36,182 nucleotides of DNA, from NCBI GenBank assembly GCA_024228555.1, contig JAAETI010000909.1:1-36182 (forward strand), in the 5' to 3' direction. Positions 1,061 through 15,717 of this stretch are shown piece by piece. The notes beneath the pieces were generated by a model. It saw only the letters and a list, made by a program, of their open reading frames with translations. It made no database searches and had not been told where the DNA came from. Source of the stretch: a bacterium. Its GTDB lineage: Bacteria; Actinomycetota; Acidimicrobiia; Spongiisociales; UBA5794. The position numbers and the translations under genes are program-made. How positions within the stretch are numbered: the first letter of the stretch is position 1; each line of letters opens with the position of its first letter.

Positions 1061-3361
1061 ATGTCGTATGCGACCAGTAGTGCCCGTCGCTTTGTTGCGA
1101 TCGCTTTGGTGACACTGCTCATGACCGCTCTCGTTGGGACAATCGCTGTCCCCGAAGCAAGCGCCATCGAGCAAACATCCGTGATCGACTTCGAAGCGGG
1201 GCTCAACCCGGGTGACACCCCGGCAAACCTATCAGTTGGCAATGGGATTTCGGGCGCCGCTCTTGGCACCGTGTCACTCGTCGGCTTCAATCCGGATGTC
1301 CCCGGCAATTCGGCGATGATCTACGACGCCTCCTGCGGCGGCCAAACCGTGCCAATCGCCGACCCGGCGTTTGATCCGGCCTTGTGTAGTGGCGGCGACA
1401 GCGACCTCTATTCGCCGGGAGCAGGCAACGTCGCGATTATCACTGAGGATGGCGATCCGCTTGACCCGGATGACAGCGGCCACCCCGACTCAACGTTCTC
1501 CTTCGACTTCACCGCATGGGGCCCCGGAGTCGTTACGGTCGATAGCTTCTCAGTGCGTGACATAGACATCGGACAAGTTGGCGCTATAGCGACGTTCAAC
1601 GATATCGACGGGAACGTCCTGGCCGTGATCTCACTCCCCGAGATTGGCGACAACGCCGTCGCCCAGATCGTTGCCAACGTGAGTGGCGTCGCAACCATGG
1701 TGGTCTACCTCAACGGATCTGGTGCAATCGACAACATCAACCTCACCACTGACTCCCCCATCATCGATCTAGAGCTCAACAAGGATGTTGCGCCCGCAGA
1801 GGTCGAGGTAGGCGATGAAACTACGTTCACGATCTCCGTCGTTAACCAAGGACCCGATGATGCCACCGGCGTTGAGGTGACTGACACATTGCCAGCCGGC
1901 CTGACGTACGTTTCCGACAACGCAGGTGGCGCCTACGACTCGGCATCCGGCGTTTGGACAATCGGCGACCTCGACGTCGGAGACAGCGTCTCGATGGACT
2001 TCGTCGTCACCGTTGACGAGCCGGGCAGCTTCACCAACGTCGCTGAAGTCACCGCAGCCAACGAGGAGGACATTGACTCGGTGCCTGGTGATGGCGAGGG
2101 CGACGACTGGGACGATGCAATCGTCACGGCCGTCGTTCCCCCTGCGATCATCGACCTGGAACTCGTGAAGGACGTTTCCCCGGCAGCAGTGCAGGTTGGC
2201 GGAGAAACAGAGTTCACGATCACCGTTGTCAATCAGGGACCTGAAGATGCAACCGGTGTCGAAGTCACCGACACTCTCCCCGCCGGTCTGACTTACCTTT
2301 CAGATGATGGCGGAGGGACCTACGACGCGGCATCCGGTGTTTGGATAATCGGCGACCTTGCGGTCGGCGACTCTGTTCAGCTCAGCTTCGTCGTCACGGT
2401 CGATGAAGTGGGTACGTTTACCAACGTTGCTGAGGTGACCGCGGCGAACGAGGAGGACAGCGACTCGGTGCCCGGTGATGGCGAGGGTGACGACTGGGAC
2501 GACGCAGTGGTCATCGCAACCGACGACCCGCCGGCCATCATTGACCTCGAGTTGGTCAAGGACGTCGATCCCGCTGAGGTTGAAGTCGGCGGTGAAACGG
2601 TCTTCACGATCACCGTTGTCAATCAGGGTCCTGACGATGCCACCGGCGTCGTCGTCACCGATACTCTGCCAACCGGGCTGACCTACGTTTCCGACAACGC
2701 AGCGGGTGCCTATGACGGTGCCACCGGGGTCTGGACTATCGGAGATCTCGCCGCTGGCGGAAGCGTTGCGATGGACTTCACAGTGACCGTCGACGACATC
2801 GGTATCTTCACCAACGTTGCTGAAGTCACAGCGGCGAACGAGGAGGATATCGACTCGGTGCCCGGTGATGGCGAGGGCGACGACTGGGACGACGCTGTCG
2901 TCACAGTAATCGACATCGTCGAAGCATCATCGACAATCGGTGACTACGTCTGGTTTGACAAGGACAAGGACAAGGTCCAGGACGCGGACGAACTGCCGGT
3001 GGCCGGTGCCACCGTGCGCATCACCAATCAGGCAACCAATGCGACGTCGACGCAGACCACAAACGCCGATGGCAAGTATCTGTTCGCCGACCTCGACGCA
3101 GGAACGTACGTCGTGGAGATCTTGACCTCATCGCTGCCTGACAACCATGCTCTGACCACGGTCGGGACCTACACGGTCACTGTTCTCGACGACGAGAGCT
3201 TTCTTGATGCCGACTTCGGCATCGTGGCGATTCTCCCTGTAACCGGCATGGAGGTCGAAACCGCTGCGCTCTTCGGCTTGATGTTCTTTGCCATCGGTCT
3301 CGGATTGCTCGGATACGAACAGGGCAGACGTCGTCTGGCAACTGGGCCAATCGCGGCCTAA
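1061..3361 (+). CDS. Secreted, LPxTG-anchored DUF11 repeat surface protein
   Basis: A 766-residue protein with every mark of a sortase substrate. Residues 1-35 form a signal peptide (basic start, long hydrophobic stretch, cleavage after PEASA). Residues ~36-233 form a beta-rich domain of the choice-of-anchor kind. Three near-identical DUF11 repeats begin at residues ~234, ~363 and ~493 (DNA period 387-390 bp), each ending in the acidic sequence DSVPGDGEGDDWDDA. A SdrD-B/prealbumin-like domain starts at IGDYVWFDKDKD (~627). LPVTG at 725-729 is followed by a hydrophobic segment and a tail with RRR, the classic anchor. ATG 1061 is preferred over ATG 1034 and 1043 because GGAAGG stands ten bases before it. 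No sortase gene is in the window. A structural or adhesive role at the cell surface is inferred; the ligand is unknown. Confidence 0.85.
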   Translation: MSYATSSARRFVAIALVTLLMTALVGTIAVPEASAIEQTSVIDFEAGLNPGDTPANLSVGNGISGAALGTVSLVGFNPDVPGNSAMIYDASCGGQTVPIADPAFDPALCSGGDSDLYSPGAGNVAIITEDGDPLDPDDSGHPDSTFSFDFTAWGPGVVTVDSFSVRDIDIGQVGAIATFNDIDGNVLAVISLPEIGDNAVAQIVANVSGVATMVVYLNGSGAIDNINLTTDSPIIDLELNKDVAPAEVEVGDETTFTISVVNQGPDDATGVEVTDTLPAGLTYVSDNAGGAYDSASGVWTIGDLDVGDSVSMDFVVTVDEPGSFTNVAEVTAANEEDIDSVPGDGEGDDWDDAIVTAVVPPAIIDLELVKDVSPAAVQVGGETEFTITVVNQGPEDATGVEVTDTLPAGLTYLSDDGGGTYDAASGVWIIGDLAVGDSVQLSFVVTVDEVGTFTNVAEVTAANEEDSDSVPGDGEGDDWDDAVVIATDDPPAIIDLELVKDVDPAEVEVGGETVFTITVVNQGPDDATGVVVTDTLPTGLTYVSDNAAGAYDGATGVWTIGDLAAGGSVAMDFTVTVDDIGIFTNVAEVTAANEEDIDSVPGDGEGDDWDDAVVTVIDIVEASSTIGDYVWFDKDKDKVQDADELPVAGATVRITNQATNATSTQTTNADGKYLFADLDAGTYVVEILTSSLPDNHALTTVGTYTVTVLDDESFLDADFGIVAILPVTGMEVETAALFGLMFFAIGLGLLGYEQGRRRLATGPIAA

Positions 3362-6283: not shown

Positions 6284-8668
6284 TCAAGCGCCGCCGCGCA
6301 GCTTCGCACCCCGCGCCGCAGCTTCTTCGATCATGTTGCTTCGTTCTGTTGAGATCTCATCGGCCTCGAGGGTGCGATCGGAGGCACGCAGGCGGTACCG
6401 AATCGCGATCGCCCTCTCCCCCGAATCGCGGTAGTCGTCGAAGATCTCGGCGCGCTCGACCAGCGATGATGCGTTCCTAGTCGTGGTCACGATGTCGTTG
6501 GCGGTCGCATCCATCGCAACCTCAAACGAGAGATCAAAGTCCACATGCGGGTAATTCGACACAGGCGCCATCTGCACGCTCGGCTGTTCGGCAACAACCG
6601 GCTTGAGATCAATCTCGACAACCGCAACCCGGCCATTCAGCTCGAACTGCGCTGCAATTTCGGGATGGAGCTCTCCGGCAACACCAACGACCTCTCCCCC
6701 GATCAGCAGCTCTGCGGTACGGGTGGGATGGAGGCCGGCACGGGTGGTGGGCCTTCGCACGATCTCCACACCAAGACCCTCAGCCACAGCTTCAGTAACC
6801 GCCAGCGCGGTTGCGGCGTCGGCGGCCGCAGTTTCCGCAAAGACGCGGGAATCACCGAACGGTCCGACAATGGCTACCCCGAGGCGGTCCGGCTGCTCCG
6901 GCACTCTGGGGTCGTCGCTCCAGGGCCTGGAGTAGAACACCCGGCCGGTCTCGAAGAGCGCGACCGACGCACTCCCCCGGTTTCGGTTGTCCCGAAGATT
7001 GCGGAGCAGCCCTGGGAGAAGGCTCTGTCGGAGCTTCGACTGGTCATCGCGCAACGGGTTGCGCACCGTGACAACATCTACGGCGCCGTCCTCCTCGGTG
7101 TCACCGAACGCAGTCAGCTCATCGTCAGAGACGAAGGGCAGGTTGATTGACTGCATCAGACCCAAGCCTCGCAACACGTTGTGCGCAAGGCGGGTCCGCT
7201 TCTGCTCGATCAGCAGCCCTCCTGCCGGGCCGGTAGGCACCGTTTCGTCGAAAGTATCGAAGTCCGCAAGACGGGCGATCTCTTCAACAAGATCGGCCGG
7301 CCTGGTCAGATCCGGGCGGTTCGTGGGAACCGTCACCGCGAGCGGTTCGTCACCACTGACGTCGAGCTCGATGCGTCGGAGCAGTTCGGCTGACTGCTCG
7401 GGTGTGATCCGATCACCGAGGATCCTGGTGACAGCCCGCGATGGGAGCTGAATGGTCTGTGGCTCCATTGGATTCACGTTGACGTCGATGACGTCTTCGA
7501 GAATCGTTCCGCCTCCGATTGAGAGGAGAAGCTGACATGCTCGTGCGTTGGCGTCGGGCGCCAGGTTCGGGTCAACGCCGCGTTCGAAACGAGCCGATGC
7601 CTCGGATCTCAGATCGTGACGTCGCGACGTGTACATGACCGTCGGTGGATCCCACGACGCTGCCTCCATGATCACACGGTGCGTCCTCTCCCTGACCTCG
7701 GAACGGGCTCCACCCATGACGGCGGCAAGAGATGTGGGGCCATCGGCGTCGACGATCACCAAGTCTCTCTCGTCCAACGAACGCTCCACACCGTCGAGAG
7801 TCTCCAACGTTTCACCGGGTCTTGCCCAGCGAACATCGAGCCGCTCGCCGGCGATTTCATCGGCGTCAAAAGCGTGCATCGGATGCCCCATCTCGAGCAT
7901 CACATAGTTGCTGACGTCGACGATGTTGGAGATCGCACGAATCCCCGCCTTGCGGAGACGCTCCCGCATCCACAGCGGTGCGGGACCGATTTGGACACCG
8001 GTCATCTCTCGCGCCACGAAACGGTTGCAGCCATCGGTGGCAGAGATTGTGACAGCCAACTCCGGGGTTCCGGGGACGGTGGCATGGCTCACATCGGGAT
8101 AGGTGACCGGGATGTCGAACCAGGCCCCGAGCTCCCTGGCCACGCCGATCATCCCCATTGCGTCAGGCCGGTTGCTGGTTATTTCGAGGTCGAAGACAAC
8201 ATCGGGCAGCGCCAGGATCGACTCGAATGGTTCGCCAAGCGGTGCATCATCGGCAAGCACCATGATTCCCTCATGGAGCTCACCGAGTCCGAGTTCACGC
8301 TCCGAGCAGATCATCCCATGAGATTCAACGCCTCGAATCGCGCGCGTCCCGATCCTGAAGTCACCGGGGAGCACCGCACCAGGCACGGCGACGGGGACGA
8401 CGGCCCCTTCGTCGAAGTTCCACGCACCGCAGATGATTTGATGATGTTGCCCATCGCCAAGATCAACCTGGGTAACCCGTACGTTGTCGGCGTTGGGATG
8501 TGCCTCTATCGAAACGACCTTGCCGATGACGACGTCGGTCCAGTCGGCACTGAAGTGTGCGATTTCCTCGACCGCATGCCCGAGCATGTCAAACGCACGC
8601 GCCAATTGCTCGGGGTCCTCGGTGGGAACATCTACATATTCTTTTAGCCAGTTCAGAGATACTCGCAT
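6284..8668 (-). CDS. pheT: Phenylalanyl-tRNA synthetase beta subunit
   Basis: A 794-residue beta subunit of the (alpha-beta)2 enzyme that charges tRNA-Phe, with the normal domain order. The OB-fold tRNA-binding domain is at ~40-155 (VVSIEAHPNADNVRVTQVD). The B3/B4 editing domain is at ~210-370, the B5 domain at ~400-470, then the catalytic-like core, and a C-terminal FDX-ACB anticodon-binding domain (~700-793, SNYPHVDFDLSFEV). The start ATG 8668 is three bases after the pheS stop. Expression probably depends on the attenuator upstream of pheS, because no promoter is visible between the two genes. Confidence 0.96.
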   Translation of the reverse strand: MRVSLNWLKEYVDVPTEDPEQLARAFDMLGHAVEEIAHFSADWTDVVIGKVVSIEAHPNADNVRVTQVDLGDGQHHQIICGAWNFDEGAVVPVAVPGAVLPGDFRIGTRAIRGVESHGMICSERELGLGELHEGIMVLADDAPLGEPFESILALPDVVFDLEITSNRPDAMGMIGVARELGAWFDIPVTYPDVSHATVPGTPELAVTISATDGCNRFVAREMTGVQIGPAPLWMRERLRKAGIRAISNIVDVSNYVMLEMGHPMHAFDADEIAGERLDVRWARPGETLETLDGVERSLDERDLVIVDADGPTSLAAVMGGARSEVRERTHRVIMEAASWDPPTVMYTSRRHDLRSEASARFERGVDPNLAPDANARACQLLLSIGGGTILEDVIDVNVNPMEPQTIQLPSRAVTRILGDRITPEQSAELLRRIELDVSGDEPLAVTVPTNRPDLTRPADLVEEIARLADFDTFDETVPTGPAGGLLIEQKRTRLAHNVLRGLGLMQSINLPFVSDDELTAFGDTEEDGAVDVVTVRNPLRDDQSKLRQSLLPGLLRNLRDNRNRGSASVALFETGRVFYSRPWSDDPRVPEQPDRLGVAIVGPFGDSRVFAETAAADAATALAVTEAVAEGLGVEIVRRPTTRAGLHPTRTAELLIGGEVVGVAGELHPEIAAQFELNGRVAVVEIDLKPVVAEQPSVQMAPVSNYPHVDFDLSFEVAMDATANDIVTTTRNASSLVERAEIFDDYRDSGERAIAIRYRLRASDRTLEADEISTERSNMIEEAAARGAKLRGGA

Positions 8669-8671
8669 TGC

Positions 8672-9754
8672 CTATCCCGGGAATTGATTGAGGAAGCGGA
8701 CATCGTTGTCCACGAAGTGTCGTATCGAGTCGATCCCGTGACGCACCATGGCCAGACGTTCGACGCCCATACCGAACGCAAAGCCGGTAACCGCATCGGG
8801 GTCATAACCGACGGCCTCGAATACGTTGGGGTCGACCATGCCGCAGCCCAACATCTCCAGCCAGCCGACCCCCTTGCAGACTCGGCAGCTCGATCCAGAG
8901 CCATCGCAGTTGAAGCACGAGACATCCAACTCGGCGGATGGCTCGGTGAACGGGAAGAAGTGTGGTCGCATCCGGACTCGTGTTCCCGACCCGAAGAACT
9001 GTCTTGCGAACTCTGCCAGCGTCCCCTTCAGATCCGAGAACGTGATGGATTCGTCAACCGCCAGGCCCTCGATCTGATGGAAGACCGGAAGATGCGATGC
9101 ATCGATGGTGTCGTTGCGATATGCCTTGCCAGGTGCGACCAGATACACGGGTGGTTCGTTGGTCTCCATGTATCGGGCCTGGATCGGCGATGTATGTGAC
9201 CGCAACACCATCCCGTCTTCATCGTCGCCGTAGTCCACATACATCGTGTCCATGCCCAAACGCGCCGGATGAGCAAGCGGTGTGTTCAATGCATCGAAGT
9301 TGTACCAGGCGAGCTCGGCCTCTGGCCCCTCGGCGACGTGATAGCCGAGACCAACGAAGATATCGCAAACCTCATCTGTAACTTGCTGGATCACGTGAAG
9401 ACGACCCGAGGCAATCTCGGCGTAGTCGACCGTCACATCGATTGCCTCAGCGGTGATTGCCGCCTCCTGTGCCTCTGCCTGGAGTTCGTCACGGCGCATG
9501 GCGACGATCGCCTCGATCTGCTTGGCGACTTCGTTGATGAGACGCCCTGCATCGCTGCGGTCTTCATTTGGCATCTTGCCAAGACCACGACGAGCAGCGG
9601 CAATGGGCGATTCCCTGCCGACCGCTTCGTTCTCGACCGTGGCAAGGCCGTCGAGGTCCTGAACCTCTGCAACCTTCGAGATCGTTGACGTGCGGAGGGC
9701 TTCTAGTGATTCAGCAAGATTCATAGGATCGATCAGGTTAGCGGTCGGATCCAT
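8672..9754 (-). CDS. pheS: Phenylalanyl-tRNA synthetase alpha subunit
   Basis: A 360-residue class II synthetase alpha subunit that forms phenylalanyl-adenylate and pairs with PheT. It has an N-terminal coiled-coil arm, motif 2 (LRSHTSPIQARYM, then GKAYRNDTIDASHLPVFHQIEG) and motif 3 (GFAFGMGVERLAM). A small cysteine cluster (Cys 280, 283, 290, 293, in CFNCDGSGSSCRVC) precedes motif 3; such an insert occurs in several bacterial PheS and may bind zinc. ATG 9754 is chosen over the longer frame to 9796 because CTAGGAG lies just upstream of it. About 90 bases separate the start from the terminator of a predicted attenuator, which suggests control by Phe-tRNA supply. Confidence 0.95.
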   Translation of the reverse strand: MDPTANLIDPMNLAESLEALRTSTISKVAEVQDLDGLATVENEAVGRESPIAAARRGLGKMPNEDRSDAGRLINEVAKQIEAIVAMRRDELQAEAQEAAITAEAIDVTVDYAEIASGRLHVIQQVTDEVCDIFVGLGYHVAEGPEAELAWYNFDALNTPLAHPARLGMDTMYVDYGDDEDGMVLRSHTSPIQARYMETNEPPVYLVAPGKAYRNDTIDASHLPVFHQIEGLAVDESITFSDLKGTLAEFARQFFGSGTRVRMRPHFFPFTEPSAELDVSCFNCDGSGSSCRVCKGVGWLEMLGCGMVDPNVFEAVGYDPDAVTGFAFGMGVERLAMVRHGIDSIRHFVDNDVRFLNQFPG

Positions 9755-9845
9755 GGCTGCTCCTAGGGGTGCGGGCAGTACCCGCTGCCGGTTCATGTGT
9801 CATGTCTTCTTCTTGCATAGGGGTGGTTCGTCTGTTCCTGGCCAC

Positions 9846-9871
9846 AAAAAAACCCGGAGCATTGCTCCGGG
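9846..9871 (-). terminator. Intrinsic terminator of the pheST attenuator
   Basis: On the minus strand CCCGGAGC (9871-9864) pairs with GCTCCGGG (9860-9853) around a three-base loop, followed by seven T (9852-9846). This is a textbook intrinsic terminator. It lies about 90 bases before the pheS start, and the left arm also belongs to an alternative 9-bp helix (9867-9875 with 9910-9918). That makes it a conditional terminator rather than just the end of the upstream methylase gene, although it may serve that role too. Confidence 0.85.
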
Positions 9872-9896
9872 CGAGGCTGCTGTAGGTGAACCTAGT

Positions 9897-9965
9897 TCAC
9901 GACGCACGACTCGCCCGGGCACCGGGCCCGATAAAAGTGAATTCGCGTCGCGGGTTGGCTGTCAT
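9897..9965 (-). CDS. Predicted leader peptide of the pheST attenuator (22 codons)
   Basis: From ATG 9965 the minus strand encodes 22 residues to TGA 9897, with Phe at positions 9 (TTC) and 11 (TTT) in the stretch EFTFIGP. The end of the ORF overlaps a hairpin GCCCGG/CCGGGC (9922-9927 with 9913-9918). Its second arm, extended to 9910, can instead pair with 9867-9875, which is part of the terminator stem. This is the 1:2, 2:3, 3:4 arrangement of ribosome-mediated attenuation. A ribosome stalled at the Phe codons would open the first hairpin and allow antitermination; one reaching the stop would cover arm 2 and allow termination. There is no ribosome binding site; a TAGCGT -10 element lies seven bases before the ATG, so the ORF is probably leaderless. 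It is inferred, not a recognised family. Confidence 0.6.
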   Translation of the reverse strand: MTANPRREFTFIGPGARASRAS

Positions 9966-9972
9966 GACGGCA

Positions 9973-10001
9973 ACGCTATCGAGCAGACCGCGCAAATGCA
10001 A
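9973..10001 (-). promoter_or_regulatory. Predicted promoter of the leaderless pheST leader
   Basis: On the minus strand TTGCAT is followed after 17 bp by TAGCGT, which fits the actinobacterial TANNNT -10 pattern. The -10 box ends seven bases before the leader-peptide ATG (9965), the spacing expected if transcription starts at the A of the ATG. It lies just downstream of the methylase gene stop (10014), so pheST would have its own transcript as well as any read-through from infC-rpmI-rplT. Confidence 0.5.
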
Positions 10002-10013
10002 GAAACTCGCCGG

Positions 10014-10775
10014 TCAATCCGATCGGCCGACCATACGGAGATACATGAGGATGCCCGCGCTGACGGCCGCGTTGAGGCTCTCGCTGCCACCTGGCATCGG
10101 TAGGGTTATGGTCTGAACGTTGCCTGTTGATGCAATCGCATCGGGGACACCATGCGCCTCGTTGCCTACCAGCAACGCCACCGGGTGGTCACCGTCGAGG
10201 CGTACGTCGTTGGCTGGTGCTCCGTCGGCCGTCGCCACCATGGCGGTCAACCCTGCAGCGGCAAGTGGTGCGACATCGGCGGGCAGACCCTCCACCAAGG
10301 TGGTGCGGAAGTGACCGCCAACCGCAGCCCGCAACACCTTTGGCGACCAGAGGTCGACCGTCCCCTTGGTTGCAAGAACCTGAAACCCAAAGGCCGCGGC
10401 AGTCCGAATCATTGTTCCCGCGTTGCCGGGGTCGGCGATATCCCACAGCACGAGGGAGTCGATCCCCGCAACCTGCCTGTCTCCTCCGGGGATCGTGATG
10501 ATCGTGACGGGCCCCCGCGGGTTGACACTCGATGCCATCCCAGCGAGGACGTCGTCCGAGACCTTTGTGACCTCCCGGCCCGCGGTGGCTGCGAGCTCGG
10601 CGGCAACCTCGTCATCAGACCTTGCGTAGACGTCGTTGATGGTGATTCCGGCTTCGATTGCTTCGCTCAACAGAAGAGGGCCCTCGATCGCGGTACGACC
10701 GGTGGCCCTTCTCTCCCGCCGACGTTGCAGCCGACGGACTCCAGCTATACGGGGGTTGCGGAGAGACGTAATCAC
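10014..10775 (-). CDS. SpoU/TrmH-family RNA 2'-O-methyltransferase
   Basis: A 253-residue SPOUT methyltransferase, probably acting on 23S rRNA ribose 2'-OH with S-adenosylmethionine. It has an N-terminal L30e-like substrate-binding part (IEGPLLLSEAIEAG, ~30-43) and the three SpoU motifs: motif 1 DIADPGNAGTMIRTAAAFG (112-130), motif 2 LLVGNEAHGVP (~201-211) and motif 3 ITLPMPGGSESLNAAVSAG (~223-241). The start is GTG 10775 with GGGAG upstream. Its place between rplT and pheS is the usual one for the TsnR/TrmH-like gene of Actinobacteria; the exact modified base cannot be told. Confidence 0.92.
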   Translation of the reverse strand: MITSLRNPRIAGVRRLQRRRERRATGRTAIEGPLLLSEAIEAGITINDVYARSDDEVAAELAATAGREVTKVSDDVLAGMASSVNPRGPVTIITIPGGDRQVAGIDSLVLWDIADPGNAGTMIRTAAAFGFQVLATKGTVDLWSPKVLRAAVGGHFRTTLVEGLPADVAPLAAAGLTAMVATADGAPANDVRLDGDHPVALLVGNEAHGVPDAIASTGNVQTITLPMPGGSESLNAAVSAGILMYLRMVGRSD

Positions 10776-15595: not shown

Positions 15596-15717
15596 GCCCT
15601 CCTTCTTCCATCCGGACTGTCACCGTCGGCCCCGGAGTTTCACCGGATCCACCCCTGCTACGGGGGTCGCGGGCTTTCACCGCCGGTCGGGGATTTCACC
15701 CTGCCCTGAAGGGGGCT
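15596..15717 (-). ncRNA. FMN riboswitch (RFN element)
   Basis: The minus strand has the conserved RFN blocks in order: CAGGGCAGGGTGAAATCCCC and GACCGGCGGTGAAAGCCCGC, then GATCCGGTGAAACTCCGGGG, CCGACGGTGACAGTCCGGAT and GGAAGAAGG. These make the six-helix FMN aptamer. It lies directly upstream of ribD and would lower rib expression when FMN is abundant. The 3' strand of the closing helix includes GAAGGAGG, a ribosome-binding-type sequence just before an in-frame GTG (15593), so control by hiding that site is possible. No U-tract terminator follows, which favours translational control. Confidence 0.95.

Follow-up and report, generated by a model that had tools for sequence, protein, structure and literature searches.

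Located on the minus strand of the window, the 36,182-nucleotide stretch of bacterial DNA analyzed here, is an element (positions 9965-9846) that in all likelihood, with a probability of roughly 0.9, functions as a ribosome-mediated transcription attenuator coupling pheST to the supply of Phe-tRNA(Phe). This reading is built on the anatomy of the leader, its conservation, the codon bias of its open reading frame (ORF), and the covariation of its helices, all of which were observed directly. An earlier note, made from the DNA letters alone, had proposed that pheST is attenuated through a leader peptide, and that proposal is now supported by conservation, Phe codons, and covariation.

Anatomy of the pheST leader

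The features of the locus are listed below in the order of transcription.

10014-10775, minus strand: gene for a SpoU/TrmH-type RNA methyltransferase, the upstream neighbor (Pfam SpoU_methylase, 1.8e-27)
9973-10001, minus strand: promoter of the leader, with a -35 box TTGCAT (10001-9996), a spacer of 17 nt, and a -10 box TAGCGT (9978-9973), then 7 nt to the ATG at 9965; assigned from the sequence and from TANNNT and -35/-10 counts in relatives
9897-9965, minus strand: leader ORF of 22 codons plus TGA, MTANPRREFTFIGPGARASRAS, with orthologous ORFs at 35 loci of the family; the Phe codons are number 9 (TTC, 9941-9939) and number 11 (TTT, 9935-9933)
9913-9927, minus strand: 1:2 (pause/protector) hairpin GCCCGG-TGC-CCGGGC, in which GCCCGG (9927-9922) pairs with CCGGGC (9918-9913)
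9910-9918, minus strand: segment 2, the 5' strand of the antiterminator, CCGGGCGAG, which covaries with 9875-9867
9867-9875, minus strand: segment 3, the 3' strand of the antiterminator, CTCGCCCGG, partly shared with the terminator's 5' arm
9846-9872, minus strand: intrinsic terminator (3:4 helix), GCCCGGAGC-AAT-GCTCCGGGT plus T7
9752-9764, minus strand: likely Shine-Dalgarno sequence of pheS, AGGAG (9764-9760), and likely start ATG (9754-9752), both assigned from the sequence
8672-9796, minus strand: pheS open frame (PheRS alpha; Pfam tRNA-synt_2d, 6.8e-96)
6284-8668, minus strand: pheT (PheRS beta; Pfam B3_4, B5, tRNA_synthFbeta, and FDX-ACB)

The elements that the earlier note had described base by base are all present in the sequence, including a terminator with seven U residues (9872-9846). 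The terminator is characterized by nine base pairs between 9872 and 9852 and seven T at 9852-9846, and no other terminator-like site was observed in the 600 bp scanned. The leader folds better than its own shuffled versions (z of -2.5). An outer helix between the two ends of the ORF, which appears in the minimum-energy fold, was rejected, as the alignment does not support it and slid registers score equally. A gap of 5 nt separates the last Phe codon from segment 1, a placement such that a stalled ribosome would mask segment 1. The promoter does not pass a strict sigma-70 scan. With two Phe residues in 21 codons at a local Phe frequency of 2.7%, the Phe content of the window ORF is not significant by itself (P of ~0.11), and thus the case rests on the relatives. 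A point against the reading is that the window leader contains only two Phe codons, with a Thr codon between them.

The longest pheS frame opens at 9796. The true start, however, is probably the ATG at 9754, which is favored over 9796 by the Shine-Dalgarno sequence and by conservation. Most close relatives have a matching pheS start shortly past the terminator, often behind an AGGAG-like sequence. Elsewhere in the window, an FMN riboswitch (RF00050, 110 bits) is located at 15596-15717 on the minus strand.

In the proposed mechanism, RNA polymerase would initiate at, or a few bases from, the leader ATG, and the 5'-terminal start codon would load a ribosome without a Shine-Dalgarno sequence. With ample charged tRNA(Phe), the ribosome would clear codons 9 and 11, reach the TGA, and cover segment 2, leaving segment 3 available for pairing with segment 4, and transcription would terminate in the T7 run. 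With charged tRNA(Phe) scarce, the ribosome would stall at the Phe codons and mask segment 1, such that segments 2 and 3 would pair, the terminator would not form, and pheST would be transcribed. If the leader were not translated, the 1:2 hairpin and the terminator would probably form by default. Both the response of the pheST attenuator to starvation and its termination efficiency are predictions from the sequence.

Folding was modeled for 43 leaders at equilibrium rather than kinetically, on transcripts truncated 5' of segment 4. In this model, segment 3 is sequestered with a median probability of 0.87 when the ribosome is stalled at the last Phe codon, versus 0.30 when it resides at the stop codon; with a dinucleotide-shuffled intervening sequence the value is 0.61. 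Sequestration was greater for the stall than for the stop codon in 41 of the 43 leaders. For six divergent family members (L009, L044, L045, L053, L088, and L092), the modeled antiterminator is not better than that of shuffles. Equilibrium folding without a ribosome varies by leader, and the state permitting the terminator is not always favored, the window's own leader being one such case.

Conservation and promoter spacing

PheS was taken from 60 related genomes and from all 50 genomes of the family, and the DNA upstream was read. The same leader architecture lies 5' of pheS in 35 of the 50 family genomes, examples being MKSLLQRQHFAFTGPGARASRMS, MRDLHRRRFSFTGPGARVSNAS, MKPIRRFRFAFTGPPARAIGRG, MVDTRFTSVSFTGGAARER, and the short MKHLRWDDGSFTG. 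In the relatives, the terminator is kept along with the ORF and its Phe codons; a terminator retained without the ORF or its Phe codons is what the earlier note had named as contrary to attenuation. The comparison of relatives suggested in that note reveals that the Phe codons are conserved and that the antiterminator and the terminator covary. In most genomes of genus g7 the leader is still positioned with pheS though trmH is found elsewhere. Some of the pheS-leader terminators in g7 and g12 have poor T runs.

In the other families of the order no leader was seen at pheS, and trmH or another gene directly abuts or overlaps pheS. No comparable leader came out of 29 scanned pheS loci, drawn mostly from across the phylum; the one weak candidate, a short ORF with Phe near a -10 box, lacks a terminator. 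Three leaders of genus g9 (L050, L053, and L092) seemingly contain another 1:2 stem, for example GACGAGTT/AACTCGTC, that encloses the second Phe codon. These divergent pheS leaders may represent a rebuilt architecture.

All 35 pheS leaders have a TANNNT box 6-9 nt ahead of the start codon, as do, at 6-11 nt, all 47 leaders of a second kind, which precede aroF and are described below (~4% in shuffles for each). In 17 of the 35 pheS leaders, a -35/-10 pair ends at most 10 nt from the leader start, versus 0.2 expected. In Streptomyces lividans the mean distance between the -10 box and the transcription start is 6.3 nt (PMC8079986), and the 6-9 nt spacing read here in all 35 leaders is typical of leaderless genes. 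On the basis of this spacing, the pheST leader is predicted to have a leaderless 5' end, and the aroF leader is apparently likewise leaderless.

These data bear on the possibility that a plain intrinsic terminator simply ends the rplT-trmH transcript, with the ORF being fortuitous and the pheST promoter located beyond the terminator. The terminator does lie close behind trmH, and the Phe content of the window ORF is, as noted, not significant on its own. The conservation of the ORF, the Phe codons, and the promoter spacing in 35 genomes, and the g7 leaders that mostly stay with pheS while trmH is elsewhere, make such an explanation highly improbable. In addition, a promoter-like pair between the terminator and pheS was observed in 0 of 35 relatives (1.8 expected), and in close relatives the gap between the two measures only a few tens of bases.

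A second leader before aroF

An exact pattern of the leader core was scanned over 84,980 species genomes. The 23 matches were all in metagenome assemblies, most of them labeled Acidimicrobiia or Acidimicrobiaceae, and approximately half precede a DAHP synthase-chorismate mutase fusion (PF00793 + PF01817) rather than pheS. This gene, aroF, stands first in the synthesis of the aromatic amino acids. The genome of the window contains such an aroF leader outside the window (L096 1294-1419; G000:C519 ~90180-90306), where MNRSSFHFVYFFTGLSARAESAR is followed by a terminator and then by the fusion gene. In the 5.4-Mb genome, the pheST and aroF sites were the only two convincing matches to a covariance model of both leader kinds; a third element was rejected, as the matches ranking next, a tRNA cluster and coding sequence, scored weakly. 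A model built from pheS leaders only matches the genome's aroF leader (E of 3.7e-9 for the whole genome) and 36 of the 36 aroF loci tried, and thus the similarity is no artefact of mixing the two kinds.

Of the 138 genomes of the order, 81 gave a match. Beyond the family of the window, every checked match with a recognizable gene was an aroF leader (families f2 to f7). The aroF leader is present in seven families of the order, and the pheST copy was found in the window's family only. Three weak order-level matches (L151, L152, and L164) that fit neither aroF nor pheS were set aside, and of the matches outside the order, a murA-linked terminator and a terminator pair in G262 were judged false. 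A scan of viral contigs gave nothing. In a distant family of the phylum, another of these matches, a genuine-looking Tyr-Trp-Phe-Phe leader, MNTDTVTRYWFGFAAGPGRRVH, with a terminator precedes a DAHP synthase gene (L172 ~1501-1606, minus strand, G428); it possibly belongs to the same leader family or is convergent. In one f2 genome, a contig carries an aroF leader with its gene (L108, G113:C15:2077-2199) that shares 91% identity with the family f6 counterparts and occurs beside a second copy of the genome's own type, which points to contamination or horizontal transfer.

The codon content of the two kinds of leaders is distinctly different. In the pheS leaders Phe accounts for 73 of 651 codons (11.2%, P of ~1e-23 versus the local background), a figure that is somewhat biased because the leaders were partly recognized by their Phe codons, and Tyr for 2 (0.3%). 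The corresponding values for the aroF leaders are 113 of 880 (12.8%) for Phe and 73 of 880 (8.3%) for Tyr. All 34 distinct pheS-leader ORFs contain Phe. Tyr codons are found in 2 of these 34 ORFs versus 42 of 43 distinct aroF ORFs, a contrast less subject to that bias (P of ~4e-18, uncorrected for kinship). This fits sensing, by each leader, of the amino acids relevant to its downstream gene: upstream of a biosynthetic gene the shared core comes with codons for both Phe and Tyr, and upstream of the Phe-tRNA synthetase with Phe codons almost exclusively.

The F-T-G-P-x-A-R-A sequence of the leaders is strikingly conserved, and FTGP is kept despite a change of codons (ACC GGG CCC or ACG GGC CCC), as would be expected if FTGPxARA were a nascent-chain arrest peptide, with ribosome stalling caused by a small molecule or by the peptide and not by the charging of tRNA(Phe). 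Most of the motif, however, is forced by the GGGCCC/GCCCGGG hairpin, and divergent leaders without it (MKHLRWDDGSFTG and MKHRRFTDEFALGVHTRVR) keep both Phe and the hairpin. Moreover, the Tyr codons segregate by the downstream gene, as tRNA sensing predicts. Arrest by the peptide is thus considered very unlikely.

For the antiterminator, 25 double-changed cells were counted in 31 aligned leaders versus 13.3 in shuffles, and 54 in 65 homologues versus 31.4 (0/500 in both cases), relative to controls that correct only partly for relatedness. In both sets the in-register pairing is superior to slid versions. Most of the signal arises from the broader set of pheS and aroF leaders, and it is weak within the pheS leaders alone. 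In the terminator, 95% of the cells are paired in the 65 homologues, with 53 double-changed versus 8.3 in shuffles. The segment 3 base at window position 9872 has two alternative partners, one in segment 2 (antiterminator) and one in segment 4 (terminator), and in 12 leaders the three bases change together, from C-G-C/U to U-A-U. A single base is thereby held under constraint by two alternative helices. The counterpart of the 1:2 hairpin in the relatives is paired in 81% of the cells and shows little covariation because its bases are nearly invariant. The earlier note had looked to covariation in all three helices; it is present in the antiterminator and the terminator and is uninformative for the third.

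A terminator with an alternative helix would suit any attenuator, including a translation-independent cis element such as a T-box, a riboswitch, or a protein-binding leader (PheRS autoregulation, for example) controlling pheST. A search of 9700-10050 for T-boxes and riboswitches gave no match even at a relaxed threshold, and no Rfam covariance model matched the leader at the gathering threshold, the sub-threshold matches being unrelated. Such an element would also leave unexplained the amino-acid-specific codons of the ORF and the predicted leaderless start, and its likelihood is judged to be very low.

The earlier note had envisaged that the logic of attenuation arose separately at this locus. 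That view is not sustained, as a homologous and more widespread Phe and Tyr leader precedes aroF in the same genome and order. Given that the pheST copy was found in the window's family only, the pheST leader probably arose when a copy of the aroF leader was relocated in the ancestry of the family, with loss of the Tyr codons; the direction of copying is drawn from the distribution of the leaders rather than from a tree. It appears rather likely, on balance, that an order-wide Phe/Tyr aroF leader was duplicated and retargeted to pheST in one family, giving a two-gene aromatic attenuation regulon. If so, amino acid synthesis and tRNA charging would answer overlapping yet distinct signals. The paired leaders offer a natural case for testing how an attenuator is copied and given a new specificity.

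Comparison with known attenuators

The pheM leader of Escherichia coli carries five Phe codons, whereas the window leader has two and a predicted leaderless start. The two systems, the E. coli pheST attenuation by pheM being that of Springer et al. 1985 (as cited in PMC11802643), are alike in the target operon, the amino acid sensed, and the logic of stall, antiterminator, and intrinsic terminator. No Rfam family matched the window leader, and thus there is no detectable homology to the E. coli pheST leader.

Among actinobacteria, Seliverstov et al. (2005) described Streptomyces attenuators before trpS and leuS and none before phenylalanine operons (PMC1262725). The leaders of S. lividans include leuL2-leuS, trpL2-trpS, thrL-thrS, and alaL-alaS, of which leuL2, trpL2, and thrL are stated to be leaderless and trpL2 contains a single regulatory codon (PMC8079986). 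These are, as here, short actinobacterial ORFs 5' of synthetase genes. They differ in that they concern other amino acids, no pheS leader is listed, and several have no clear terminator, whereas the window has one. For the predicted leaderless leader in an actinobacterium described in the earlier note, these S. lividans leaders provide a precedent. The literature searched contained no account of pheST attenuation in an actinobacterium.

The aroR-aroF attenuator of Corynebacterium glutamicum (Neshat et al. 2014) contains, according to its description in PMC11802643, a Phe-Tyr-Phe leader before a DAHP synthase gene. By that description it resembles the aroF leaders reported here, likewise from an actinobacterial lineage. 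It differs in that it controls aroF and not pheST, whereas in the Acidimicrobiia one FTGPxARA-core family is common to both. The trpL leader of Sinorhizobium meliloti is a leaderless classical attenuator, the RNA of which begins at the leader AUG (PMC7298713); it is alike by description and differs in being alphaproteobacterial and responding to Trp.

Given the leaderless synthetase attenuators of S. lividans and the Phe-Tyr-Phe aroF attenuator of C. glutamicum, the class of mechanism is already known. What is new, to the extent tested, is the target, the lineage, the sequence family, and the pairing of pheST and aroF leaders. The window leader adds a leader family absent from Rfam and extends pheST attenuation by a leader peptide to a lineage of actinobacteria whose only representatives among the matches are metagenome assemblies.
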